IMG/VR virus record: IMGVR_UViG_3300042391_000634
Coordinates: 62,001-126,000 of that record
From: a virus
Direction: 5' to 3' (one strand)
Length of the DNA: 64,000 bases
The notes below the pieces were generated by a model. It was given only the letters and a program-made list of their open reading frames with translations. It searched no databases and was not told the origin of the DNA. Both the position numbers and the translations under genes were made by a program. This document shows, piece after piece, positions 21,830 through 49,717 of the stretch. Position 1 is the first letter of the stretch; each line of letters begins with the position of its first letter.

Positions 21830-23581
21830 ATGAACTTTATAAATTTTGATACAATATACGTTAATGGTTCTTCATTAACTGCAGGTGGTGGTTTATCCGA
21901 TTTTGGGGTTAAACAAGAATATAAAAAACAACATGGGGTTGAGTGGGTTAATGAAAAAGACGTAACATATCCAAAATATATTGCAGACCATTTTGGGGTT
22001 AAATTGGTTCATGATGCGTTTTCAGGTTCTGGAGCACCAAGATTGGTTAGAAGAACATACGAACATATACAAAAAATTGGTTTAGATAATGCAAGAAAAA
22101 CATTGTTTTTATTTGAAATAACGGACCCACCTCACAGAGTTGATTTATATGTGGAAAAGGTAAATGATTACGTTATAACCAATGTAAGATATGATGATGA
22201 TAGAAATATTGGTTCAATATCATCCATACAAATGCAAGACGTTTTAACAAAGGACGGCATAAAATATGACCACGATTACTTTAAAGGTCAAATATCGGAT
22301 GAAGTTAAAGATTACTTATCAAAATATCACAATCCTATAACATACTTTAATAAGTTTGTCGGTGAACTTGTTGGTTTATTTAGTTTTTTAGAAGAAAATA
22401 ATATTGAATATTTTTATTGGTTTGATAATGATTCACTACAAATGCCGTTTAAAGATTTTTATGTTGATTATGATAAAAGAAGAAACTTAAAATTTGGTGG
22501 GTTTAACTGTGTTAACCAATTCTGCACATTCCAAAATATGAGAATATGTGACGAATTAAACGGTGCAAGTGGTGATATGCATCCTGGTTATTTTGGTAAC
22601 AAAAACTTTGCGGAAAAGGTCATTAAAATGATTGAGGGTAAATTAAAACCGACCTTATATGTATTTGGGGATTCCCATACTCAAACATTTGAAAATCATT
22701 TTAAATCGGATTTATCATGGGCTAAACAATATGTAAATCATTTGGGTGAAACACCAAAAAATTATCCTGATTTAATTGCCGAACATTATAATATTGATGT
22801 TGTAAATTATGGTATGGGAGGATGTTCTAATTATACAATATTTGAGTCATTCATAAACAATCATAAAAATATAAAACCAAAAGATTTGGTTGTATTTGGT
22901 TGGACATCAATTAGTAGATTTAGAGTTGCTAATAACGTTAATGACCTTGTCGACATTATTCCGTTTACACCACATCCAAAACAAAATGACGATGTTGAAA
23001 AGAAAACTACGGAACAAATAGCCTACAATAAAGAAACACATTCAGTTTGGTGGACCGAAATTGAAAATTTTGTAAAGATTATTAATCATACATTAAAAAA
23101 TAATAAAGTATTACATTGGACATGGGTTAAACCAGAAAACATTTTACCAACAAGAATATGGTCTCAAGAAAGTATTGATTTAAAACATTCATATATCTTC
23201 AATAATTGGAACGAGTCAGAACCAAAAGTTCAAGAATTAATGAGAAAAAATTGTGATTATTTAGTTAATCTTACTGAAAATATAGATTTAAATGAATTAA
23301 AAACATTTGCGGAAAATGATAAAAGAATAATTTTTTATAACATTGAATTATGTAATGAGGAAAAAAGACAATTTGTTTTTCATAATTTTAAAATAAAACA
23401 TTACCAATCAAGAAACTTTAAAAAAGATTGTTATCAACATTTCATTCCATATAAAAAATATCAAAGCATACTTGAAGAAACCAATGGTGCCGTTGATGAT
23501 CTACACATTGGTAGATTTGGACACGTAGAACTATCGAAAGATTTAATTAAAGAATTTGAAATGAAAAAACCCATCAATTAG
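21830..23581 (+). CDS. Tandem SGNH/GDSL-like hydrolase
   Basis: 583 residues from the ATG at 21830; an in-frame ATG at 21785 lies inside the upstream terminator tail and promoter. Two SGNH-like units are visible. Unit 1: YVNGSSLTAGGG (nucleophile-type block), C-terminal SGDMHPGYFGNKNFAEKV (D-x-H). Unit 2: LYVFGDSHTQTFENHF, GMGGCSNYTIF, then DDLHIGRFGHVELSKDL (D-x-H). The spacing is alike, indicating an internal duplication. Likely an esterase acting on acyl groups of surface glycans or a virion enzyme. The gene ends in a terminator shared with the convergent GIY-YIG gene. Confidence 0.78.
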   Translation: MNFINFDTIYVNGSSLTAGGGLSDFGVKQEYKKQHGVEWVNEKDVTYPKYIADHFGVKLVHDAFSGSGAPRLVRRTYEHIQKIGLDNARKTLFLFEITDPPHRVDLYVEKVNDYVITNVRYDDDRNIGSISSIQMQDVLTKDGIKYDHDYFKGQISDEVKDYLSKYHNPITYFNKFVGELVGLFSFLEENNIEYFYWFDNDSLQMPFKDFYVDYDKRRNLKFGGFNCVNQFCTFQNMRICDELNGASGDMHPGYFGNKNFAEKVIKMIEGKLKPTLYVFGDSHTQTFENHFKSDLSWAKQYVNHLGETPKNYPDLIAEHYNIDVVNYGMGGCSNYTIFESFINNHKNIKPKDLVVFGWTSISRFRVANNVNDLVDIIPFTPHPKQNDDVEKKTTEQIAYNKETHSVWWTEIENFVKIINHTLKNNKVLHWTWVKPENILPTRIWSQESIDLKHSYIFNNWNESEPKVQELMRKNCDYLVNLTENIDLNELKTFAENDKRIIFYNIELCNEEKRQFVFHNFKIKHYQSRNFKKDCYQHFIPYKKYQSILEETNGAVDDLHIGRFGHVELSKDLIKEFEMKKPIN

Positions 23582-23592
23582 ATGGGTTTTTA
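23570..23592. terminator. Bidirectional terminator overlapping both stop codons
   Basis: CCCATC-aatta-GATGGG hairpin flanked by A-run and T-run; it lies within the last codons of both convergent genes. Confidence 0.8.
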
Positions 23593-24239
23593 TTTATTCT
23601 ACCTAATTTCCATCCTGTTGGTATTATCCCCATCATTTTTATTTTTTTATTTTTAATACCATTATTAATCCATTGAGAACCATATTGTGAATTTGATTCG
23701 CCAATACCTTGTCCTTTTTTTGATGATTTTATTTTCTCAATTGTTTCAGGTTTATGTTTTTTACCTTCCCAAGAATAATATTCTTGTATTGGTTTCATTT
23801 CACCCATTTGATATCTTTTTTTATTTGATTCAGATATTTGTGTAGAACGTTTTTTTCGATATTCTTCATCTGTTTTTAATCTTTCACTATGTTTTAACCC
23901 AGCAGCTTGGGAACATTTAAATTGATGTTTTTGATTGTTAAACCCACCTGAACCACCAGGTTTCATATTATAACAATTAACATCGTAAACATATTCTTCG
24001 GTGACAATTTCCTTTTCTCTTTGAATTAAAATTTCTCTATTTTTACACCATTCAATTATTTCAATTTTAAAATTTTCTTCACCATATTTTCTAATCGCAT
24101 ATCTTAAACTTTTACCACTACCTAAATAACCATCTTTTAAATTACTTGTTGAATGCATACCAATATAAAACTTATTGTTAAGTAAATTGGTTGTTTTATA
24201 AATGAAGTGGTATTTTTTTAACTTAATTGAGTTCGACAT
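23574..24239 (-). CDS. Free-standing GIY-YIG homing endonuclease
   Basis: 221 residues. HFIYKTTNLLNNKFYIGMHS carries the GIY-YIG core (I-Y near 13, Y-I-G at 25-27), followed by GYLGSGKSLRYAIRKYGEENF with the catalytic Arg and IVTEEYVYDVNCYNMKPGG with the Glu. The C-terminal half has NUMOD-like DNA-binding repeats (KKHKPETIEKIKSSKKGQG). Encoded next to the tmRNA gene, a likely intrusion site. It has its own late-type box. Confidence 0.9.
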   Translation of the reverse strand: MSNSIKLKKYHFIYKTTNLLNNKFYIGMHSTSNLKDGYLGSGKSLRYAIRKYGEENFKIEIIEWCKNREILIQREKEIVTEEYVYDVNCYNMKPGGSGGFNNQKHQFKCSQAAGLKHSERLKTDEEYRKKRSTQISESNKKRYQMGEMKPIQEYYSWEGKKHKPETIEKIKSSKKGQGIGESNSQYGSQWINNGIKNKKIKMMGIIPTGWKLGRINKNPSN

Positions 24240-24251: not shown

Positions 24252-24276
24252 GTCGAAAACTCAAAAAAGTCGAGGG

Positions 24277-24679
24277 TGGAGACGAGGGGAGTCGAACCCC
24301 TGTCCGATCCGCCGTACCATAAATGGACTACACGTTTATTCAATTAGTTCACAATTGACAAATATTTGGTTCCTATTTTGACATCGTAACCAATAACTGT
24401 GTCGAGTTCACTTTAAGGTAGCCCTCTGAACGAGACCTTTGACACATTTTAAGTGGTATCATCACTGTGGGGACTTCTGTTCCTAGGTTATATGTCCTTC
24501 GACCCGAGTGTAGTTTCGCCTTAGGCTACTGCTACAGTAGAAGTTGCGATTAAACCGCAAGCTTCCATGTTTGTATAAACGTTGTCGTTTAAATTTTACC
24601 ACCATAGATTTAAGTCATAGATGACATCTGACTACGTGCCCATTTACCATACCAACGCCCGTCAATTCCAGGCGTCCCC
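24277..24679 (-). ncRNA. ssrA: Transfer-messenger RNA (tmRNA)
   Basis: About 403 nt, one piece. 5' end GGGGACG pairs with 3' CGTCTCC-A (one G-U), forming the acceptor stem. The D-like segment CTGGAATTGACGGG and the T-arm GGGGTTCGACTCCCC are canonical. CCA is not encoded (CCC follows). The tag frame (24521-24562) reads ACGLIATSTVAVA then TAA, if the resume codon is GCT at 24560-24562. The stop codon follows a perfect CTACTG/CAGTAG hairpin. The tag ends VAVA rather than the usual LAA. Confidence 0.95.
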
Positions 24680-24700
24680 ATTTATAATCAAATATAGATA

Positions 24701-24730
24701 AAAAAGGGTTAAAAAACTAATTTTAACCCT
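24701..24730 (-). terminator. Rho-independent terminator
   Basis: GGGTTAAAA/TTTTAACCC stem with T-run on the minus strand, between the Ala/Lys-rich small gene and the tmRNA. Confidence 0.75.
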
Positions 24731-26474: not shown

Positions 26475-27425
26475 AATAGGGCCTTAGGTTTTCATAGAGA
26501 ACAAGGTCATTTACCACCACTTTGTTTTTCTAAACAAAGAAAATAAAACTCTGAGAATACAAGTTTTAACAACCGACTTAGGAACATTATTTGTTTCTTT
26601 CCTTTTCCACGAACTTTTGATTCGTACCGATCAATGACGGTCAATTAGATTAACCAATCCTAAAGTCATCAGATACTCTTTTATTACTTATTACTCAACA
26701 AATCTGCCGACCTGTTTCAACCTTGCGGGTTTAGAGAACTTTCTTAAAAATCATATTGGGATTGAGTCCCTTTATGGCCGTGAACCTCTCACGACTAAGT
26801 AGTCACCTGTCTCCAATGACTGACGAACACTTTTTCAGTTTAATTATGATTTTTATATCGTAATAAAAATTTAGTTTCCGAATTAGGAAAGTAGTGGTTC
26901 GTCACCTAGCCAAGTTATCTTTTGAACAACTCGATACTAAACTACTCTCTGAAGTGTCCCCACCTCCATATTTTTGGTTTCCTTCGAAATTAAACCCTTG
27001 GTAGGATTTAGTCAAGGACACTAACAGCACCACCTGTTTTTTGTCATACCTTCCATCTTACGACGCTACGGTTTTAAGACCACCATTGTATTGAATCACG
27101 CAATTGTATAATCGGATAACTATACTTCTCACAAACTAATTCTATGGATTATTCTTATTGGTGTTCCCACCTCAACCAAACAACTCGGATTGCTTGGTCA
27201 TCTAACCATTTCGCTACGGAGTTACCCTCACTACTTCAGGTCAAATGATATTCCACTTGTCTACTCGAGATCCATTACTGAATCCGCAACTTACCCCAAC
27301 CAAGGGTTTGTCACTTTATCCCACTTTCATGGTTTATTTTATTGACTATAGACGGCCAATATTTTTATTCAAAGAACTTTATCTTTTGGGTTATTCACCC
27401 TTCTTTTACAAAGATAAGAAATGTT
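26448..27425 (-). ncRNA. Giant structured noncoding RNA candidate (about 1 kb; GOLLD/ROOL-like setting)
   Basis: Nearly 1 kb without a credible ORF on either strand, ending in a strong terminator. Many helices are visible on the minus strand: an 11-bp perfect long-range pairing (26992-27002 with 27299-27309); a 7-bp stem (26953-26959 with 27016-27022) that crosses it, giving a pseudoknot; a 9-bp stem (26887-26895 with 26941-26949); a 7-bp hairpin (26520-26526/26533-26539); an 8-bp stem near the 5' end (27379-27386/27410-27417); and a GGTG-GGAA-CACC hairpin with a GNRA loop. Not RNase P, SRP, 6S or intron-like by motif. The class is inferred from size and from location beside phage tRNAs. Confidence 0.7.
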
Positions 27426-33009: not shown

Positions 33010-35619
33010 ATGAAGAAACTATTAGTAGTATTATTTTTATTTATATCATTTTTAGGGTTTGGTCAGTCAGTAACGGCCCCAGACCCTAAATCATTTACTG
33101 TGAATACCACAGGACAAGACGCTAGTGGATTTTCATTAAGTGGATTTAGTGCAACATCTACTTTATTAGCTTCAATCAGTTTAGTTAATCCACCATCGGG
33201 AACTACATTCTATCTTAACACAACAACAGGTTTAATTGCCGCAAGTGGATTTACTTTAAGTGGTAATAAAACACGTTTAGTGGTAACTGGAACGATGGCA
33301 AGTATTAATACCGCATTAGCATCTCTAAAAATAAATACAGGAACAATAATAGGAGACATAAATATTTCAGTAGCAACAACTGTCAATCCCGTTGGGTTTT
33401 ATTATAATGGAGTAAACGGACATTTTTACAAACCGGTAACTACTGGTACAACATATACAAACGCAAGATCATCATCACTATTAACAACATTCAAAGGACA
33501 GACGGGTTATTTACTAACACTAACATCATCATCGGAAGATTTATTTATTCAAGCTAATGTACCACAATCAAATATATGGTTTGCGGCAACGGATGAAGTA
33601 ACTGATGGAACTTGGGTAATTGATGCGGGTCCTGAAAAGGGGACTGTGATGAAAACATCCAACGGACCAACTGCCGGAAACCGACCAGGTGTATATAATA
33701 ATTGGGCAAATGGTGAACCAAACGGATATAATCATAGTGAGGATTATGCGGTAACAAAATGGAATGGTAACCAATGGAATGATTTATCAAACAATTGGAG
33801 TAACCCATATGTAATTGAATATGGAACTTGGTCTAATCCCGATGATGCTACATTTACAGAATTTTATACCAATTCAGTAACACATTCAAACGGAGAAACT
33901 ATAAAAGCATTATTTGGATTTAAGTTTAATACTTCAATAGATAAAACAAAATTCTTAGCACAGATATTCAAAAGAAACGACACATATTCAAATTGGGCGG
34001 CGGCGGATGGTTATAAATCATTGAGTGGTTTGGGTAAAGTATTTCTTTCAAACCAAATAGATACTTCAAAGATTTATACAACTGGCATTCCATTAACAGC
34101 AGGAACATCCGATATGCAACAATTTAATGAATCGGATATTGGTAAGATATATAGAATAACAATAACAGGTACAACAGGTGGAGCAATATGGGGAACTGAT
34201 ATCTATACAAGTGATTCATATATTTCAGCTGCAGCGGTACATGCTGGTGTAATATCAAACGGACAAACAAAAGAAGTTTATATTAAAGTAGTGCAAGGAT
34301 TAAATGAATATATCGGATCAACTCGTAATGGAGTATCAACATCTGGTTATGGTGGTTGGGGGTTAAGTTATCAATTCGTATCAGCACCGGCATCATATAA
34401 AGCAACTATATCACCAGGAGGTGTTGAATGGTCTTATACAAATCCAAATGCAAGTTGGTTAAATGGTAATAGTAGATTGTTAATTGACATGAGACAAGTT
34501 GGAAGTATAGATCCAACTAAAATATCAAATGTAAAAATATTAGATGCATATGATGGACCGGTTACATACACATCTCATGATGCTAATGGTTGGGCAATAT
34601 ACACAGTTCCATCTCCATTAACAAAGGTAACTGACGGAACTTCGGCGTATAATCAATATATTAGAAATATGAATGGTTCAAATACCGAATATGCATTTGC
34701 ATGTGGTATTGGACTTACTCAACAAGGTGCGTTCAAACAACACAAAATGGAATTACAAGAATATGATAGTACACAATTAAAAACTTTATATAATAGTATT
34801 GTAACAGTATCAGATGTGTATTTGGCGTTTAAGGAATTGGCAAATGGCGGTATATTCGGAAATCAAAGTGGTAATGAATTTGGGTATGGTATTCAATATA
34901 AAAACGCAGATGTAAATGACGATGGTTTATTTAATGAAGCGGATTGTTTCAAATTATTACAAAACTTAACAGGTGTTCAAGATTTAGTTAGTAGTTACAC
35001 CTTAGATAATACAATACGTTTAATACCTGATTCAATTTATAATAAAATTGGTAAATCTACTTGGAAATCGTTTCAAAATTTTTCAGGAAAAACTTATAAT
35101 TTTAGTTTATTAGATAATGTAATAAGTTATAACTACGATTTGGCTGTTAGTTGGAAAGGTGACGTAAACTTATCTCATTCAGCAACTCCCCCGTCAAATA
35201 ATATTACAACGATGACAGTTAGAACATCAATGAGTACACCAATATCAACTGACATCAACGCATCTATTATGACCGAAGTAATTGGTGATAGTGTTTATGC
35301 TTACATCACATTTGACCCATTACAACAAAACGTGGTAGGAACTCAATTTCAATTAAACTATGATAATTCGGTCTTAAATTTTAAAGGAATACAATTTACC
35401 ACAAAAGGTTCACCTACCAACTATGCAACCAACAAGGGTAATTACATTAATTTAGGTTCGTTGGTAAGTGATGGTAGTACAAGTTTGGATAACACAACAA
35501 CATATAAGATTTCATTTTCGGCAAATACAAAATTGGATAACATATTGGGTTTAATTTCAATAGGTTCAACGGATGCGGTTAATAAAGATGGAAAATCATT
35601 AAAAATAAAAATAAATTAA
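33010..35619 (+). CDS. Exported C-type-lectin adhesin with dockerin-like and cohesin-like domains
   Basis: 869 residues. Signal peptide 1-19 (FISFLGFGQ end). Residues about 130-272 form a C-type lectin-like domain with NNWANGEPNGYNHSEDYAV (the EPN-type sugar-binding motif), WNDL and PYVIEYG. About 634-646 is a Ca2+-loop, DVNDDGLFNEADC, of dockerin type. About 745-869 is cohesin-like (GTQFQLNYDNSVLNFKGI). It probably binds carbohydrate at the cell surface. An exported lectin is unusual for a phage late protein, since virion fibres are not normally exported. Confidence 0.8.
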   Translation: MKKLLVVLFLFISFLGFGQSVTAPDPKSFTVNTTGQDASGFSLSGFSATSTLLASISLVNPPSGTTFYLNTTTGLIAASGFTLSGNKTRLVVTGTMASINTALASLKINTGTIIGDINISVATTVNPVGFYYNGVNGHFYKPVTTGTTYTNARSSSLLTTFKGQTGYLLTLTSSSEDLFIQANVPQSNIWFAATDEVTDGTWVIDAGPEKGTVMKTSNGPTAGNRPGVYNNWANGEPNGYNHSEDYAVTKWNGNQWNDLSNNWSNPYVIEYGTWSNPDDATFTEFYTNSVTHSNGETIKALFGFKFNTSIDKTKFLAQIFKRNDTYSNWAAADGYKSLSGLGKVFLSNQIDTSKIYTTGIPLTAGTSDMQQFNESDIGKIYRITITGTTGGAIWGTDIYTSDSYISAAAVHAGVISNGQTKEVYIKVVQGLNEYIGSTRNGVSTSGYGGWGLSYQFVSAPASYKATISPGGVEWSYTNPNASWLNGNSRLLIDMRQVGSIDPTKISNVKILDAYDGPVTYTSHDANGWAIYTVPSPLTKVTDGTSAYNQYIRNMNGSNTEYAFACGIGLTQQGAFKQHKMELQEYDSTQLKTLYNSIVTVSDVYLAFKELANGGIFGNQSGNEFGYGIQYKNADVNDDGLFNEADCFKLLQNLTGVQDLVSSYTLDNTIRLIPDSIYNKIGKSTWKSFQNFSGKTYNFSLLDNVISYNYDLAVSWKGDVNLSHSATPPSNNITTMTVRTSMSTPISTDINASIMTEVIGDSVYAYITFDPLQQNVVGTQFQLNYDNSVLNFKGIQFTTKGSPTNYATNKGNYINLGSLVSDGSTSLDNTTTYKISFSANTKLDNILGLISIGSTDAVNKDGKSLKIKIN

Positions 35620-45035: not shown

Positions 45036-45515
45036 TTATTTTTTACTACGGTCCCATTTAGCCTTTCTTAACTCAGGGGATATTAAATGACTCTCATCTA
45101 TTGTATGTTCAATTTTAACGTTTATACAGGTTTGGGGTAAACTACAATTTTTTAAATAATTGTTAATATATCCCATCATATTAGCACTACCAATAGGGTT
45201 TGCCGAATGAATATAAACCTGGGGTAAAGGTATTTTTTCATTCATACTTTCAGCAACCAAATACCTACAACAATCCATACCAGTTTTTTCTTCTATGTTG
45301 TTATAATCCAACATATAATTATTTTTTACATTTGTATAATATTCTATCATGGCACCTTCACCTAAATCATGATCTAAAGATATTACATCAAAATTACCTA
45401 AACTATGTAATTTAATTGCAGCCACAAATTCATCGTAATTACGGGCAATAACCCAATCCTCAGCATTAGGGGTTCTAACGTCATCGAGATATAATCTCTT
45501 TTTTTCAATTTTCAT
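45036..45515 (-). CDS. Cyclic-phosphate-processing receiver (cREC) domain protein
   Basis: 159 residues. RLYLDDVRTPNAEDWVIARN, then DVISLDHDLGEGAMIEYY, then a TGMDCCRYLVAE helix and PQVYIHSANPIGSANMMG carry the cREC signature (L-D-D-x-R-T-P, S-L-D-H-D-L-G and the H-S-A-N-P-x-G motif). In other repair systems such domains are thought to open 2',3'-cyclic phosphates before ligation. It overlaps the RNA ligase gene by 11 nt. Confidence 0.85.
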   Translation of the reverse strand: MKIEKKRLYLDDVRTPNAEDWVIARNYDEFVAAIKLHSLGNFDVISLDHDLGEGAMIEYYTNVKNNYMLDYNNIEEKTGMDCCRYLVAESMNEKIPLPQVYIHSANPIGSANMMGYINNYLKNCSLPQTCINVKIEHTIDESHLISPELRKAKWDRSKK

Positions 45516-46623
45516 CTTTCTTAAAAGGTTTTTCGTATTTAGGTTTCATTATTCTCCATATAATATGTTCATATGGTTTTCCGTCCCACATGGCAAACAT
45601 AATTGGTCTATAATAAGATTCTACATCACATTTTTCTAAATGTAATGCAAAGTCTTTTTTTGATGGTGTAACTTCTTTATCGTTATATTTTCCATATTTA
45701 AAATAGTCCACAACCTTACCACAATGATTTGATATATTATACATACCATATTCAAAAGAACTTACTTGTTGTTTAACCCATTTATAAAATTCATCGGGAA
45801 CCCTATCTAAAAATTCATCCATAGGTTTTCCTTCTTTCATTAATTCCCAAATATCTTTTGATGAAAAATTTGTTAAAATTTTGTGAAGACGTTTATATTC
45901 TTCTCCTTTGATTTTCATACGAAAACCATTCTTAAATTTAATTACATATCCCTCTCTATCTTTACTAATTTCTTCTTTAAGTAAGTCGTATCCTTCACCC
46001 CATGTTTTATATGTTGTTACAACCTCAAAGCCCGAGTCTTGTGTCCAAAATAAACTACTATCAGGTATTTCTTCACCTGTTTCAGTATGAATCGCACCAA
46101 GAACAACTAATTTTTCTTCACCTTTATAATCAACAACAATTCTATTTTCAGGATAAATAATTTCAAATAAATATGTATTGTCTTTTCTCCATGCACTGAT
46201 GTCATGTCTATCAAGAATTTCTTTTCCTTTAATTGATTGTGGTGATGTGAAGGATCCGCGTGTAGCCATTATCCATTCATTTTCATAATTAAAAAGAATA
46301 CCTAAAGATCCATCCATCTTTTCATAGACAACGTAATTTTCATTAGGAATATCTTCTGGTTTATGTTCTTCGTAATTAAAAAATTTCTTAAATGGTCTTG
46401 CAACAATATCACCTTTTGAATTGGTAACTAATCCACGGCATTGTAAAGTAATATCATCCCACAATCTTTCGTATTGAACTTTAGGAGAATAATTCCATAT
46501 AGTCAAATCTTTAGTAGGATGTGTTTGTTTATGTAACAAACCATCATTATGATATTTCTCTAAAATTTCTAACATTAGTTTATTATTTTGTGGAATCCGA
46601 TGTTGTATGTATATTTTAACCAA
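45505..46623 (-). CDS. T4 Rnl1-like RNA ligase
   Basis: 372 residues if started at 46623. Nucleotidyl-lysine motif YEKMDGSLG (Lys102), preceded by CRGLV and ARPFKKFFNYEE; later LFEIIYPENRIVVDY (motif IIIa) and EGYVIKFKNGFRMKIK (motifs IV-V). A second start is M17 (46575), linked by TAATG to the small upstream ORF. It should seal RNA ends, probably tRNA breaks. Partners are the kinase and the cREC protein. Confidence 0.92.
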   Translation of the reverse strand: MVKIYIQHRIPQNNKLMLEILEKYHNDGLLHKQTHPTKDLTIWNYSPKVQYERLWDDITLQCRGLVTNSKGDIVARPFKKFFNYEEHKPEDIPNENYVVYEKMDGSLGILFNYENEWIMATRGSFTSPQSIKGKEILDRHDISAWRKDNTYLFEIIYPENRIVVDYKGEEKLVVLGAIHTETGEEIPDSSLFWTQDSGFEVVTTYKTWGEGYDLLKEEISKDREGYVIKFKNGFRMKIKGEEYKRLHKILTNFSSKDIWELMKEGKPMDEFLDRVPDEFYKWVKQQVSSFEYGMYNISNHCGKVVDYFKYGKYNDKEVTPSKKDFALHLEKCDVESYYRPIMFAMWDGKPYEHIIWRIMKPKYEKPFKKDEN

Positions 46624-46817
46624 TTAAAGGACAAATATATCCCACATATTTTGTTTTTCCAAATTGATACATGAGAATCTGGTTGACATGTTTCAAAATA
46701 AAAATAAACAAAAGGTAATGGATATAATGACCATTGGTTTCTAAGTAAGTTAGCGTGAAATTTCATCTTTGGTTTTGGATTTATGGACTCAATAAAAGAA
46801 ACAATAAATTGACTCAT
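46575..46817 (-). CDS. Possible small protein coupled between kinase and RNA ligase
   Basis: 80 residues. Its ATG directly follows the stop of the kinase (TAGATG), and its stop overlaps the alternative ligase start (TAATG), which argues for coupling. Sequence is Phe/Tyr/Trp-rich (YPLPFVYFYFETCQP). The host-type promoter for the ligase lies inside it. No family known. Confidence 0.45.
   Translation of the reverse strand: MSQFIVSFIESINPKPKMKFHANLLRNQWSLYPLPFVYFYFETCQPDSHVSIWKNKICGIYLSFNWLKYTYNIGFHKIIN
46632..46663 (-). promoter_or_regulatory. Bacteroidota-type host promoter TTTG-N20-TATATTTG
   Basis: Minus strand: TTTG (46663-46660), 20 nt, TATATTTG (46639-46632). Transcription should start about 7 nt further on, close to the first ligase ATG and 50 nt before M17. 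Confidence 0.6.
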
Positions 46818-47246
46818 CTATAACTTTATTTCAAACCTATTCTTCATTTGTTGGAGTTTATTTTCAGGCACTCCGTGAATATTTTGATTTCCGTGTCTAT
46901 TTTCAACAATTACCGTATGAACTCTATAATTGTATCTTTCTGCCATTTTAAAATATTCATCCATTTCCCATTCTTGGGTAAATGTGTTTGCCACAACAAT
47001 ACGTGCAATTTCTTGTCTCATTCTTTCTGAACATCTAAATTGACAATAATTATGAGCTTCTTTTATTTTGGAACCATCAAAAATATAATCACCATTATCA
47101 TCCACAAAAAAATCATCAGCTGATAAAACTTCTTGCGGATTATTATTTGGTTGTTGTAAAATGATATTAGCTAATGTTGATTTCCCTGAACCGGAAACAC
47201 CCCTTAAAAGTATTAAGTCACCTTTTATTTCGTTTACATTATCCAT
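46818..47246 (-). CDS. Polynucleotide kinase-like P-loop protein
   Basis: 142 residues. Walker A GVSGSGKS (residues 16-23), then EVLSADDFFVDDNGDYIFDGSK and a helical lid with AHNYCQFRCSERMRQEIAR, then VVANTFTQEWEMDEYFKMAERYNYRV. This is the AAA_33-type kinase found with RNA-repair ligases (T4 Pnkp-like 5'-kinase part); no phosphatase domain is fused, and the nearby cREC protein could do the 3' side. Confidence 0.85.
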   Translation of the reverse strand: MDNVNEIKGDLILLRGVSGSGKSTLANIILQQPNNNPQEVLSADDFFVDDNGDYIFDGSKIKEAHNYCQFRCSERMRQEIARIVVANTFTQEWEMDEYFKMAERYNYRVHTVIVENRHGNQNIHGVPENKLQQMKNRFEIKL

Positions 47247-47704: not shown

Positions 47705-49717
47705 TTATTTTTTAGAAATTAATAATTTTTCGTCTTTATATTTCAAAATGTATTGTTCATTTTCTAAAATATTACCTTTTAATATTTCTTCACTTAAAAA
47801 ATCTTCACAAAGATTTTGTATAATACGTTTTAGTGGACGAGCACCATACTCTTCTTGTGAATTTAATTCGTAAATTCTATTAGTAACTGTTTTATCAAAA
47901 TTAATTTTATAATTTTTATCGGTTAATCTTTTATTTAATCTACCAACTTCAATATTAATAATTTTCTTTAATGTTTCATCATTTAAAGAGTTAAATAAAA
48001 TAACATCATCAACACGATTTAAAAACTCTGGATTGAATTGTTGTTTTAGTGCTTTTTGAATCATTGTTTTTCTAACCTCATATTGTTGTTCTTCACTTGA
48101 TGATGTTTTAAACCCAACACCCCCACCTAATTCAGATACTTTCTTAGCACCAACATTTGATGTCATGATAATAATCGTATTTGTGAAATTAATTTTTCTA
48201 CCGAATGAATCTGTTAAATGACCTTCATCTAAAATTTGAAGTAGAATATTAAAAACATCTTTATGAGCCTTCTCAATTTCATCGAATAAAATCACAGAGA
48301 ATGGGTTATTTTTAACTTTCTCAGTCAACTGACCTCCTTCATCATAACCAACATAACCAGGAGGAGAACCGATTAATTTTGATACATTATGTTTTTCCAT
48401 ATACTCACTCATATCCACACGAATAATTTTATCGGAGTCACCAAATAAAACCTCAGCAATTGATTTTGCTAAAAATGTTTTACCAACTCCCGTTGACCCT
48501 ATGAATATAAATGAACCAATTGGTTTATTCGTTTCTTTAATACCAACACGATTTCTTCTAATTGATTTTGAGATTGTTTTAATTGCCTCATCTTGACCTA
48601 TTACTTTTGCTGATAATATATCCTCAAGTTGTAATAACTTTTTAGTCTCTTTAGTATCGAGTTTAGTAATTGGAACTCCTGTCATATCTGTAACAATGTT
48701 ATATACATCATCTAAAGTAACTGGAGTTTTATTATCCTTTTGTTTGTTTGACCATTTTAATTTTTCATCGTCTAACTTAGTTGTTACTTTTTTCTCCTCA
48801 TCACGTAGTTTTGCCGCTTGTTCGTAATTTTGACTTTTAACAACTTGAACTTTTCTTTCTTTAATATTGTCAATTTCTTTTTTTAATTTTTCAATCGACT
48901 CAGGAATTTTAGATGAAACTCTTTTTTCGGAACCCAATTCATCTAATACATCGATTGCTTTATCTGGAAATTGTCTATCTGTAATGTAACGACCTGAAAG
49001 TTTAACAATTGTTTCTAATACACCTTCCTCATAACTTACTTTATGAAAGTCTTGATATGATGTGGTTAAGTTTTTAAGAATTTCTAAAGTTTCTTCTTCT
49101 GTTGGTTCATTCAATATTATTTTTTGAAAACGACGAACTAAAGCTGCATCTTTTTCAATATGTTTTTTAAACTCGTCAAAAGTTGTTGCTCCAATACATT
49201 GTAATTCCCCTCTTGCTAATGCTGGTTTTAAAATATTGGCGGCGTCCATGGCACCACTTGCATTACCAGCACCAACCATAGTATGTAATTCATCAATGAA
49301 GATGATTACATTAGGTGCCTCTTGTAATTCATTAATGATTGCTTTAATTCTCTCTTCAAATTGACCACGATACTTTGTGCCGGCAACTAATGAGGTTAAA
49401 TCTAACGACATAATACGTTTGTCAATAAGATTGGGAGGACAATCACCTTTGTAAATCATTAACGCTAATTTTTCAACTAACGCAGATTTACCAACTCCCG
49501 CTTCTCCAACAATAACGGCGTTGTTTTTCTTTTTACGAGAAAGAATTTGTGCAATTCTTTTTACCTCCTTGTCTCTACCGACAACGGGATCAATTTTACC
49601 TTCTTCGGCCATCTTAATAAGATCACGAGAGAAGTTATCTAAAATTGGTGTGTTAGAACCCTTTCTAACTTTTTTTGGGTTTGTGGTTGGACCATCTTCA
49701 AAAAAATCTACTGACAT
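47705..49717 (-). CDS. ClpC-like two-ring AAA+ unfoldase lacking the N-terminal domain
   Basis: 670 residues (bacterial ClpC about 820-850). Starts almost directly at D1: Walker A GEAGVGKS (71-78), Walker B VIIFIDE (137-143), pore loop KYRGQFEER, UVR-type linker near 294-315, D2 Walker A GSTGVGKT (407-414), Walker B VILFDE (475-480), pore segment GSPPGYVGYDE. The VGF tripeptide (534-536), the site for ClpP docking, is kept. The two N-domain repeats are absent. It probably works with host ClpP. Its promoter is of host type. Confidence 0.93.
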   Translation of the reverse strand: MSVDFFEDGPTTNPKKVRKGSNTPILDNFSRDLIKMAEEGKIDPVVGRDKEVKRIAQILSRKKKNNAVIVGEAGVGKSALVEKLALMIYKGDCPPNLIDKRIMSLDLTSLVAGTKYRGQFEERIKAIINELQEAPNVIIFIDELHTMVGAGNASGAMDAANILKPALARGELQCIGATTFDEFKKHIEKDAALVRRFQKIILNEPTEEETLEILKNLTTSYQDFHKVSYEEGVLETIVKLSGRYITDRQFPDKAIDVLDELGSEKRVSSKIPESIEKLKKEIDNIKERKVQVVKSQNYEQAAKLRDEEKKVTTKLDDEKLKWSNKQKDNKTPVTLDDVYNIVTDMTGVPITKLDTKETKKLLQLEDILSAKVIGQDEAIKTISKSIRRNRVGIKETNKPIGSFIFIGSTGVGKTFLAKSIAEVLFGDSDKIIRVDMSEYMEKHNVSKLIGSPPGYVGYDEGGQLTEKVKNNPFSVILFDEIEKAHKDVFNILLQILDEGHLTDSFGRKINFTNTIIIMTSNVGAKKVSELGGGVGFKTSSSEEQQYEVRKTMIQKALKQQFNPEFLNRVDDVILFNSLNDETLKKIINIEVGRLNKRLTDKNYKINFDKTVTNRIYELNSQEEYGARPLKRIIQNLCEDFLSEEILKGNILENEQYILKYKDEKLLISKK

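Follow-up and report, generated by a model that had tools for sequence, protein, structure and literature searches.

The stretch of DNA analysed (the window) comprises 64,000 bases (62001-126000) of a virus record 335,630 bases long, which comes from a very large lake phage. A one-piece tmRNA gene (ssrA) was located by ARAGORN on the minus strand at 24275..24679, and the Rfam model RF00023 matches at 24274-24679 with 91.4 bits as compared to a gathering score of 47 (E 3.1e-34), so that the match is not attributable to chance. The model is covered end to end (positions 1-374 of 374), which places the RNA in this family. The concurrence of ARAGORN and RF00023 bears out the preliminary description of the window as carrying a complete one-piece tmRNA, and adds the strand, which had not been given. 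No second full tmRNA was found in the whole 335,630-base record. A blastn comparison with phages produced matches in 22 records, confined to the 3' end of the tRNA-like domain, and a hand-made pattern gave 0 matches.

The 5' half of the acceptor stem, GGGGACG (24673..24679, minus), pairs at 7/7 positions with the 3' half, CGTCTCC (24278-24284, minus), and carries the G3.U70 alanine identity pair. Pseudoknot 1 (PK1), with limits set approximately by alignment at 24598..24633 (minus), has the stem AGTCA/TGACT, the fifth pair of which is A-T in 73, G-C in 35 and T-A in 1 of 109 sequences. A strict stem reading, confined to the 62 of 109 sequences with both ends directly read (the window and 61 relatives), gave 7/7 acceptor pairs and 5/5 T-stem pairs in all 62, and the acceptor stems vary among these sequences by compensated changes. 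G3.U70 is found in 62/62 sequences of the strict reading and in 94/94 of a looser one, in which the acceptor is unread in 15 of 109 (9 with a T-arm insertion, 6 truncated or with no readable end) and in which L133, L135 and L173 are misregistered with 6/7 pairs, as compared to 7/7 in the strict reading. The 3' CCA is incompletely encoded in the window tmRNA, and ACCA is encoded in 47 of 94 copies. Decay of the tmRNA gene was considered and rejected on account of the intact stems, the compensated changes and the intact G3.U70.

Two departures from the usual T arm were recorded among the relatives. The arm is interrupted in 9 of 109 sequences (L125, L148, L156, L157, L191, L202, L205, L215 and L217), and a group I intron was recognized by Rfam at the break in 5/5 of those scanned (L125, L148, L156, L202 and L215). 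The T loop reads GGCGGTA, GGCGGTG or GGCAGTG, not the usual TTCRANN, in L126, L152, L209, L213, L197, L198 and L203.

A promoter-like box TATATTTG is situated upstream of the tmRNA at 24689..24696 (minus). Its motif, TANNTTTG, occurs 12-30 nt before the tmRNA in 64 of 71 distinct upstream sequences as compared to a background of 1.6% when windows are drawn at random from these loci. A TT(T/A)G-like box farther upstream accompanies it in 54 of the 64; the pair of boxes resembles the Bacteroidota -33/-7 promoter consensus. The presence of a terminator-like hairpin directly upstream (24705-24730) suggests that the tmRNA may be made as a separate transcript.

On the other side, a homing-endonuclease-like gene (GIY-YIG, SegE-type; 23574-24239, minus) begins 35 nt downstream of the tmRNA. 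A GOLLD RNA (290 bits; 26548-26949, minus) shares the strand of the tmRNA and separates it, at a distance of about 2 kb, from the tRNA genes; a GOLLD RNA is also present in relative L202. An 869-residue protein encoded at 33010-35619 (plus) displays LCCL, C-type lectin and cohesin-like matches, and is perhaps a virion surface protein.

Reading frame of the tag

The tag frame occupies 24524..24586 on the minus strand, with GAC as the resume codon (24584-24586) and TAA as the stop (24521-24523). No stop interrupts it between codon 85 and this TAA, which occupies nt 157-159 of the tmRNA gene. The C-terminal VAVA of the preliminary description is correct. The start given there (ACGLIATSTVAVA) is too late, as conserved residues lie upstream of it; the start called by ARAGORN in the window, which leaves only ATSTVAVA, was rejected for the same reason. 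In the relatives, the equivalent frame is started by ARAGORN farther upstream, at a codon for Gly, Asp or Ala, as exemplified by GNVYNNMEVSGLLATSKVAA, GNVYKNMEIAGILATSNVAVA and DNVYNTMEIAGLLATSKVAA and, from the Ala codon, by ANVYNNMEIAGVLATSKVAA.

The resume codon lies 13 nt beyond the end of the PK1 pattern in 91 of 108 phage sequences, the distance being 12 nt in another 15 and 14 nt in the last 2, and the base at -4 is A in 108/108; a resume codon 12-14 nt past PK1, together with a stop, is present in 108 of 109 sequences, the remaining one being truncated. For E. coli, PMC2481249 puts the resume codon 12 nt downstream of PK1 and names A86, at -4, as the main determinant of the tag frame. 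Tag residues 3-4 are VY in 41/41 distinct group-A sequences, their codons changing synonymously. The upstream start in relatives, the A at -4 and the conserved VY together lead us to read the window tag as DNVYTNMEACGLIATSTVAVA, of 21 residues.

The perfect CTACTG/CAGTAG hairpin that had been noted before the stop exists as an inverted repeat (24526-24540), but it was rejected as a functional element. Among 125 tag sequences it is carried only by the window and the near-identical L111, and because it is confined to these 2 it is not a conserved element; it is incidental.

Tags of the phage family and of Bacteroidota

The phage origin of the tmRNA, claimed at the outset, is supported by the viral nature of the record and by a search by PK1 pattern, in which this type of tmRNA was found in 108 viral contigs as compared to 0 bacterial genome contigs. 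A second pattern matched 44 stretches, of which 17 were new loci, and 17/17 of these were readable. The loci of the 108-contig survey and the 17 new ones, the window included, make up a set of 125 tags, 54 of them distinct.

Tag length is 20 residues in 46, 21 in 73 and 22 in 6 of the 125, and the last residue is Ala in 125/125. Among the 54 distinct tags, residue 11 is invariably Gly, and position 7 is occupied by Met in 52 and by Leu in the other 2. The tags end in VAVA, VAA, VTA and similar, VAA being the end of 20 of the 54 distinct tags and of 47 of the first 108 tags; an LAA end was found in 0/54 and an aromatic-x-x-AA end also in 0/54. The usual ssrA degron is short and closes with ALAA or something very similar, a form that the 54 distinct tags do not have. 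For group A (41 distinct sequences) pN/pS is 0.41 in frame as compared to 0.78 and 1.99 in the shifted frames, and for group B (20 sequences) 0.64 as compared to 0.67 and 0.91, the latter ratio not discriminating between the true and a shifted frame; such ratios are only indicative, because RNA structure also constrains the tag bases. The tmRNA is real and recurs throughout a large family of phages; what sets it apart is how long its tag is and how the tag ends.

When the SmpB genes of two relatives were used as queries, 19 bacterial loci were retrieved, all of them titled as Bacteroidota-type organisms. In both of these relatives SmpB adjoins a conserved 153-residue ORF (L270, 1492-2393; L271, 639-1528). 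RF00023 is above its cut-off in 13/19 of the genomes located in this way. When 61 genomes were taken from the phylum to which one of these belongs, 59 exceeded the cut-off, the 59 phylum tmRNAs scoring 106-198 bits. ARAGORN read 68 tags from 73 Bacteroidota tmRNA loci, 66 with an AA end; the two odd ones, ERSQPFSKSSRAGN and DQVDKLNSVP, are perhaps misreadings. Direct reading returned a usual-type tag of 9-10 residues for 70 of the 73 loci by means of a pattern modelled on the kind of tag that was anticipated; the ARAGORN reading is the unbiased one. A phage-type tag was found in 0/73 of these loci; a tag identical to the host's was looked for, and not encountered, at phylum level, and the claim that the phage tag departs from that of its host holds for the likely host phylum, with short usual tags in 70/73 loci.

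As compared to the one-piece tmRNA of Bacteroidota (RF00023), the phage RNA has the same tRNA-like domain, PK1, resume-codon context, G3.U70 and one-piece order, but differs in a tag of 20-22 rather than 9-10 residues, in the lack of an [LM]AA end, and in its pattern being found in no genome contig. Phage tmRNAs as such are already known, from mycobacteriophages, Bacillus phage G, Melnitz and huge phages. The accessible parts of the respective texts list ten phages with tmRNA (PMC4131195), tmRNA in 402 of 18,146 phage genomes (PMC9004378), and huge phages with tmRNA and SmpB (PMC7162821), and in those parts an extended tag or a phage Clp partner is not mentioned; the tmRNA website is described in PMC4383926. 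The variation here is the tag of 20-22 residues with its LAA-free end, and in the passages retrieved from openly licensed papers no phage tmRNA was described as having an extended tag. The huge phage LR756511 differs from the present family in having a tag of the usual kind, ANPEFAMAA. In the tmRNA of the huge phage L385 (LR756508.1, 92434-92880), an open frame, known from this one sequence and with its start placed by eye, could encode 36 tag residues, GVNNADYESAGFTAEDFAQMDGESLYHGSERKPAAV.

Phage-encoded Clp unfoldase and ClpP

The window also encodes a Clp-family unfoldase of 670 aa (47705..49717, minus) with two AAA+ domains and a VGF loop (Pfam AAA_2, AAA_lid_9 and ClpB_D2-small; alignment of 18). 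Two AAA+ modules together with an [LIV]GF loop are the features of ClpA/ClpC, and the ClpP-docking loop is VGF or IGF in 18/18 aligned phage unfoldases. The N-domain, which in ClpA and ClpC is the docking site of adaptors, gave no Pfam match in the phage unfoldase. The enzyme is named Clp-like because it lacks this domain and falls below the NCBIfam equivalog cut-offs (725 vs 993 bits for ClpA, 801 vs 1232 for ClpB). A ClpP of 225 residues is encoded beyond the window, at record bases 212530-213207, far in the record from both clpC and the tmRNA. It matches PF00574 with 193.9 bits as compared to a cut-off of 20.2, and is under the NCBIfam ClpP equivalog cut-off (187.8 vs 308.6); the Ser/His/Asp triad motifs are found in 12/12 aligned phage ClpPs. 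SmpB was not found in the 335,630-base record, and occurs in 2/21 tmRNA-bearing relatives; no Lon_C match was obtained in the record, and no ORF of the window has a tag-like C-terminus.

An RNA-repair-like cluster (45036-47246, minus), consisting of a T4 Rnl1-like RNA ligase, an AAA_33 kinase-like protein and a cyclic-phosphate processing receiver domain, adjoins the unfoldase gene, and would fit a phage that meets RNA-cutting defences.

The distribution of the Clp genes was surveyed in 21 tmRNA-bearing records, drawn from the 22 for which a length of 100 kb or more was listed; 28 of the 108 PK1-pattern loci had no listed length. The record of L127, which was left out, is G002 of the portal survey described below, and has an unfoldase match. 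The unfoldase is present in 19/21 of these records, which may be fragments, and damaged copies were noted in G012 (frameshifted) and G042 (full of stops). ClpP is present in 11/21 and absent from 10, which are possible fragments; in records above 250 kb it is present in 6/7. Neither Clp gene was found in G028 (131 kb) and G030 (181 kb), which may also be fragments.

The portal protein of the window is T4-like (Portal_T4), with at least 581 relatives among viral contigs. In a survey of the records of 26 of 80 portal loci, the unfoldase was found in 21/26 portal-bearing records irrespective of whether a tmRNA was detected, and it is therefore regarded as a gene of the lineage; on this survey, the co-occurrence of tmRNA and Clp appears inseparable from lineage. 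Two other huge phages have a relative of the unfoldase (54% and 53% identity) and no tmRNA above the cut-off. By description, the present phage resembles the moraphages, large aquatic phages with a ClpA-like core gene and predicted Bacteroidota hosts (PMC12619734), and also some jumbo phages, in which ClpP is known (PMC7824862); it differs from both accounts in its tmRNA, the word "tmRNA" occurring 0 times in their main texts.

Possible fate of the tagged products

We propose a working phage trans-translation RNA whose 21-residue tag would be a degron for the phage-encoded Clp unfoldase and ClpP, a reading that is put forward tentatively and carries somewhat under half of our confidence. The phage tmRNA would be charged with alanine by the host alanyl-tRNA synthetase and would free the ribosomes stalled during infection, with SmpB presumably supplied by the host, since none was found in the phage record. 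The stalled product would gain the tRNA-borne Ala and then the 21 residues, where the host tmRNA would add a short tag of YALAA or YAMAA type. The 21-residue tag, in which the middle part and the final Ala are conserved, would act as the degron, and the phage unfoldase and ClpP would degrade the product. The sequences compared support the tmRNA and its reading frame, and they show the tag and the two Clp subunits to be conserved. Expression, the use of host SmpB and, above all, the reading of the tag by the phage Clp enzyme are what we infer. The tag is probably read by the phage Clp protease, and this link is stated with reserve because the unfoldase belongs to the lineage as a whole, and because an aid to virion assembly has been suggested for jumbo-phage ClpA or ClpX (PMC7824862). 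The redirection of tagged peptides to a different protease, already raised in the preliminary description, is plausible, as both a Clp ATPase and a ClpP are among the genes of the phage.

The switch of degron is proposed by analogy with the mycoplasma tags, which have been lengthened and switched to Lon. The tag of mycoplasma ends in AFA and ClpXP is absent (PMC3985003), and Mesoplasma florum has an orthogonal tag with its own Lon (PMC9097571). These tags are thought to reflect a protease switch and, like those of the phages, are long and have a non-ALAA end and a final Ala; they differ in their AFA end and in their protease, the phage candidate being a Clp pair in a record without Lon. The combination of an AFA end with a cognate Lon was not found in the phage.

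The same RNA could work while its tag is degraded by the ClpXP, ClpAP and Lon of the host, the tag sequence having drifted under loose recognition of a hydrophobic end with a terminal Ala-COOH, and the phage Clp being used elsewhere, e.g. in host takeover or virion assembly. This alternative is unlikely on balance, though it has to be taken seriously: all 54 distinct tags end in Ala and the VAA of 20 of them might be near enough to LAA for acceptance by host ClpX, the assembly role mentioned above has been suggested, and the unfoldase is found in portal-bearing records with tmRNA or not. Conservation of the inner tag over 20 residues, however, goes beyond the needs of a drifting ClpX signal, and LAA or aromatic-x-x-AA ends are wanting among the 54. 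A tag that frees ribosomes yet shields the product from the proteases of the host, whether to keep truncated phage proteins in service or to relieve those proteases of excess load, is considered rather improbable. It would account for the absence from all 54 of ALAA, the canonical C-terminus on which ClpX and ClpA act (PMC3985003), but a purely protective tag would need no conserved sequence of 20 residues, and the Clp pair of the phage looks complete.

That the gene is a relic, i.e. a decayed host tmRNA kept by chance, or a decoy RNA that titrates SmpB, is very improbable. The RF00023 score of 91.4 bits lies below the 106-198 bits of the 59 phylum tmRNAs, and the 3' CCA is only partly encoded in the window, as such a reading would have it; it is largely contradicted by the intact stems with their compensated changes, G3.U70, the A at -4 and the conserved tag, and also by ACCA being encoded in half of the copies (47/94) and by the confinement of the type to viral contigs (108 vs 0 genome contigs). 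To return to the proposed phage Clp degron, its more specific form is an orthogonal, largely phage-encoded pathway, in which a degron of 20-22 residues, supplied by the private tmRNA of a widespread group of lake phages, would be read directly by the N-domain-less Clp unfoldase with phage ClpP; it is possible, though we hold it with some doubt, at about a third of our confidence.

Phage tmRNAs have been catalogued already. Here a long tag, conserved and different from the host's, is common to more than 100 phage contigs, in a lineage that also encodes an unfoldase and a peptidase and that might run a tag-and-destroy pathway of its own. If the orthogonal pathway is true, the phage would decide what becomes of stalled products without relying on host ClpXP or its adaptors, and the tag and its enzyme would constitute a new orthogonal degron/protease pair.
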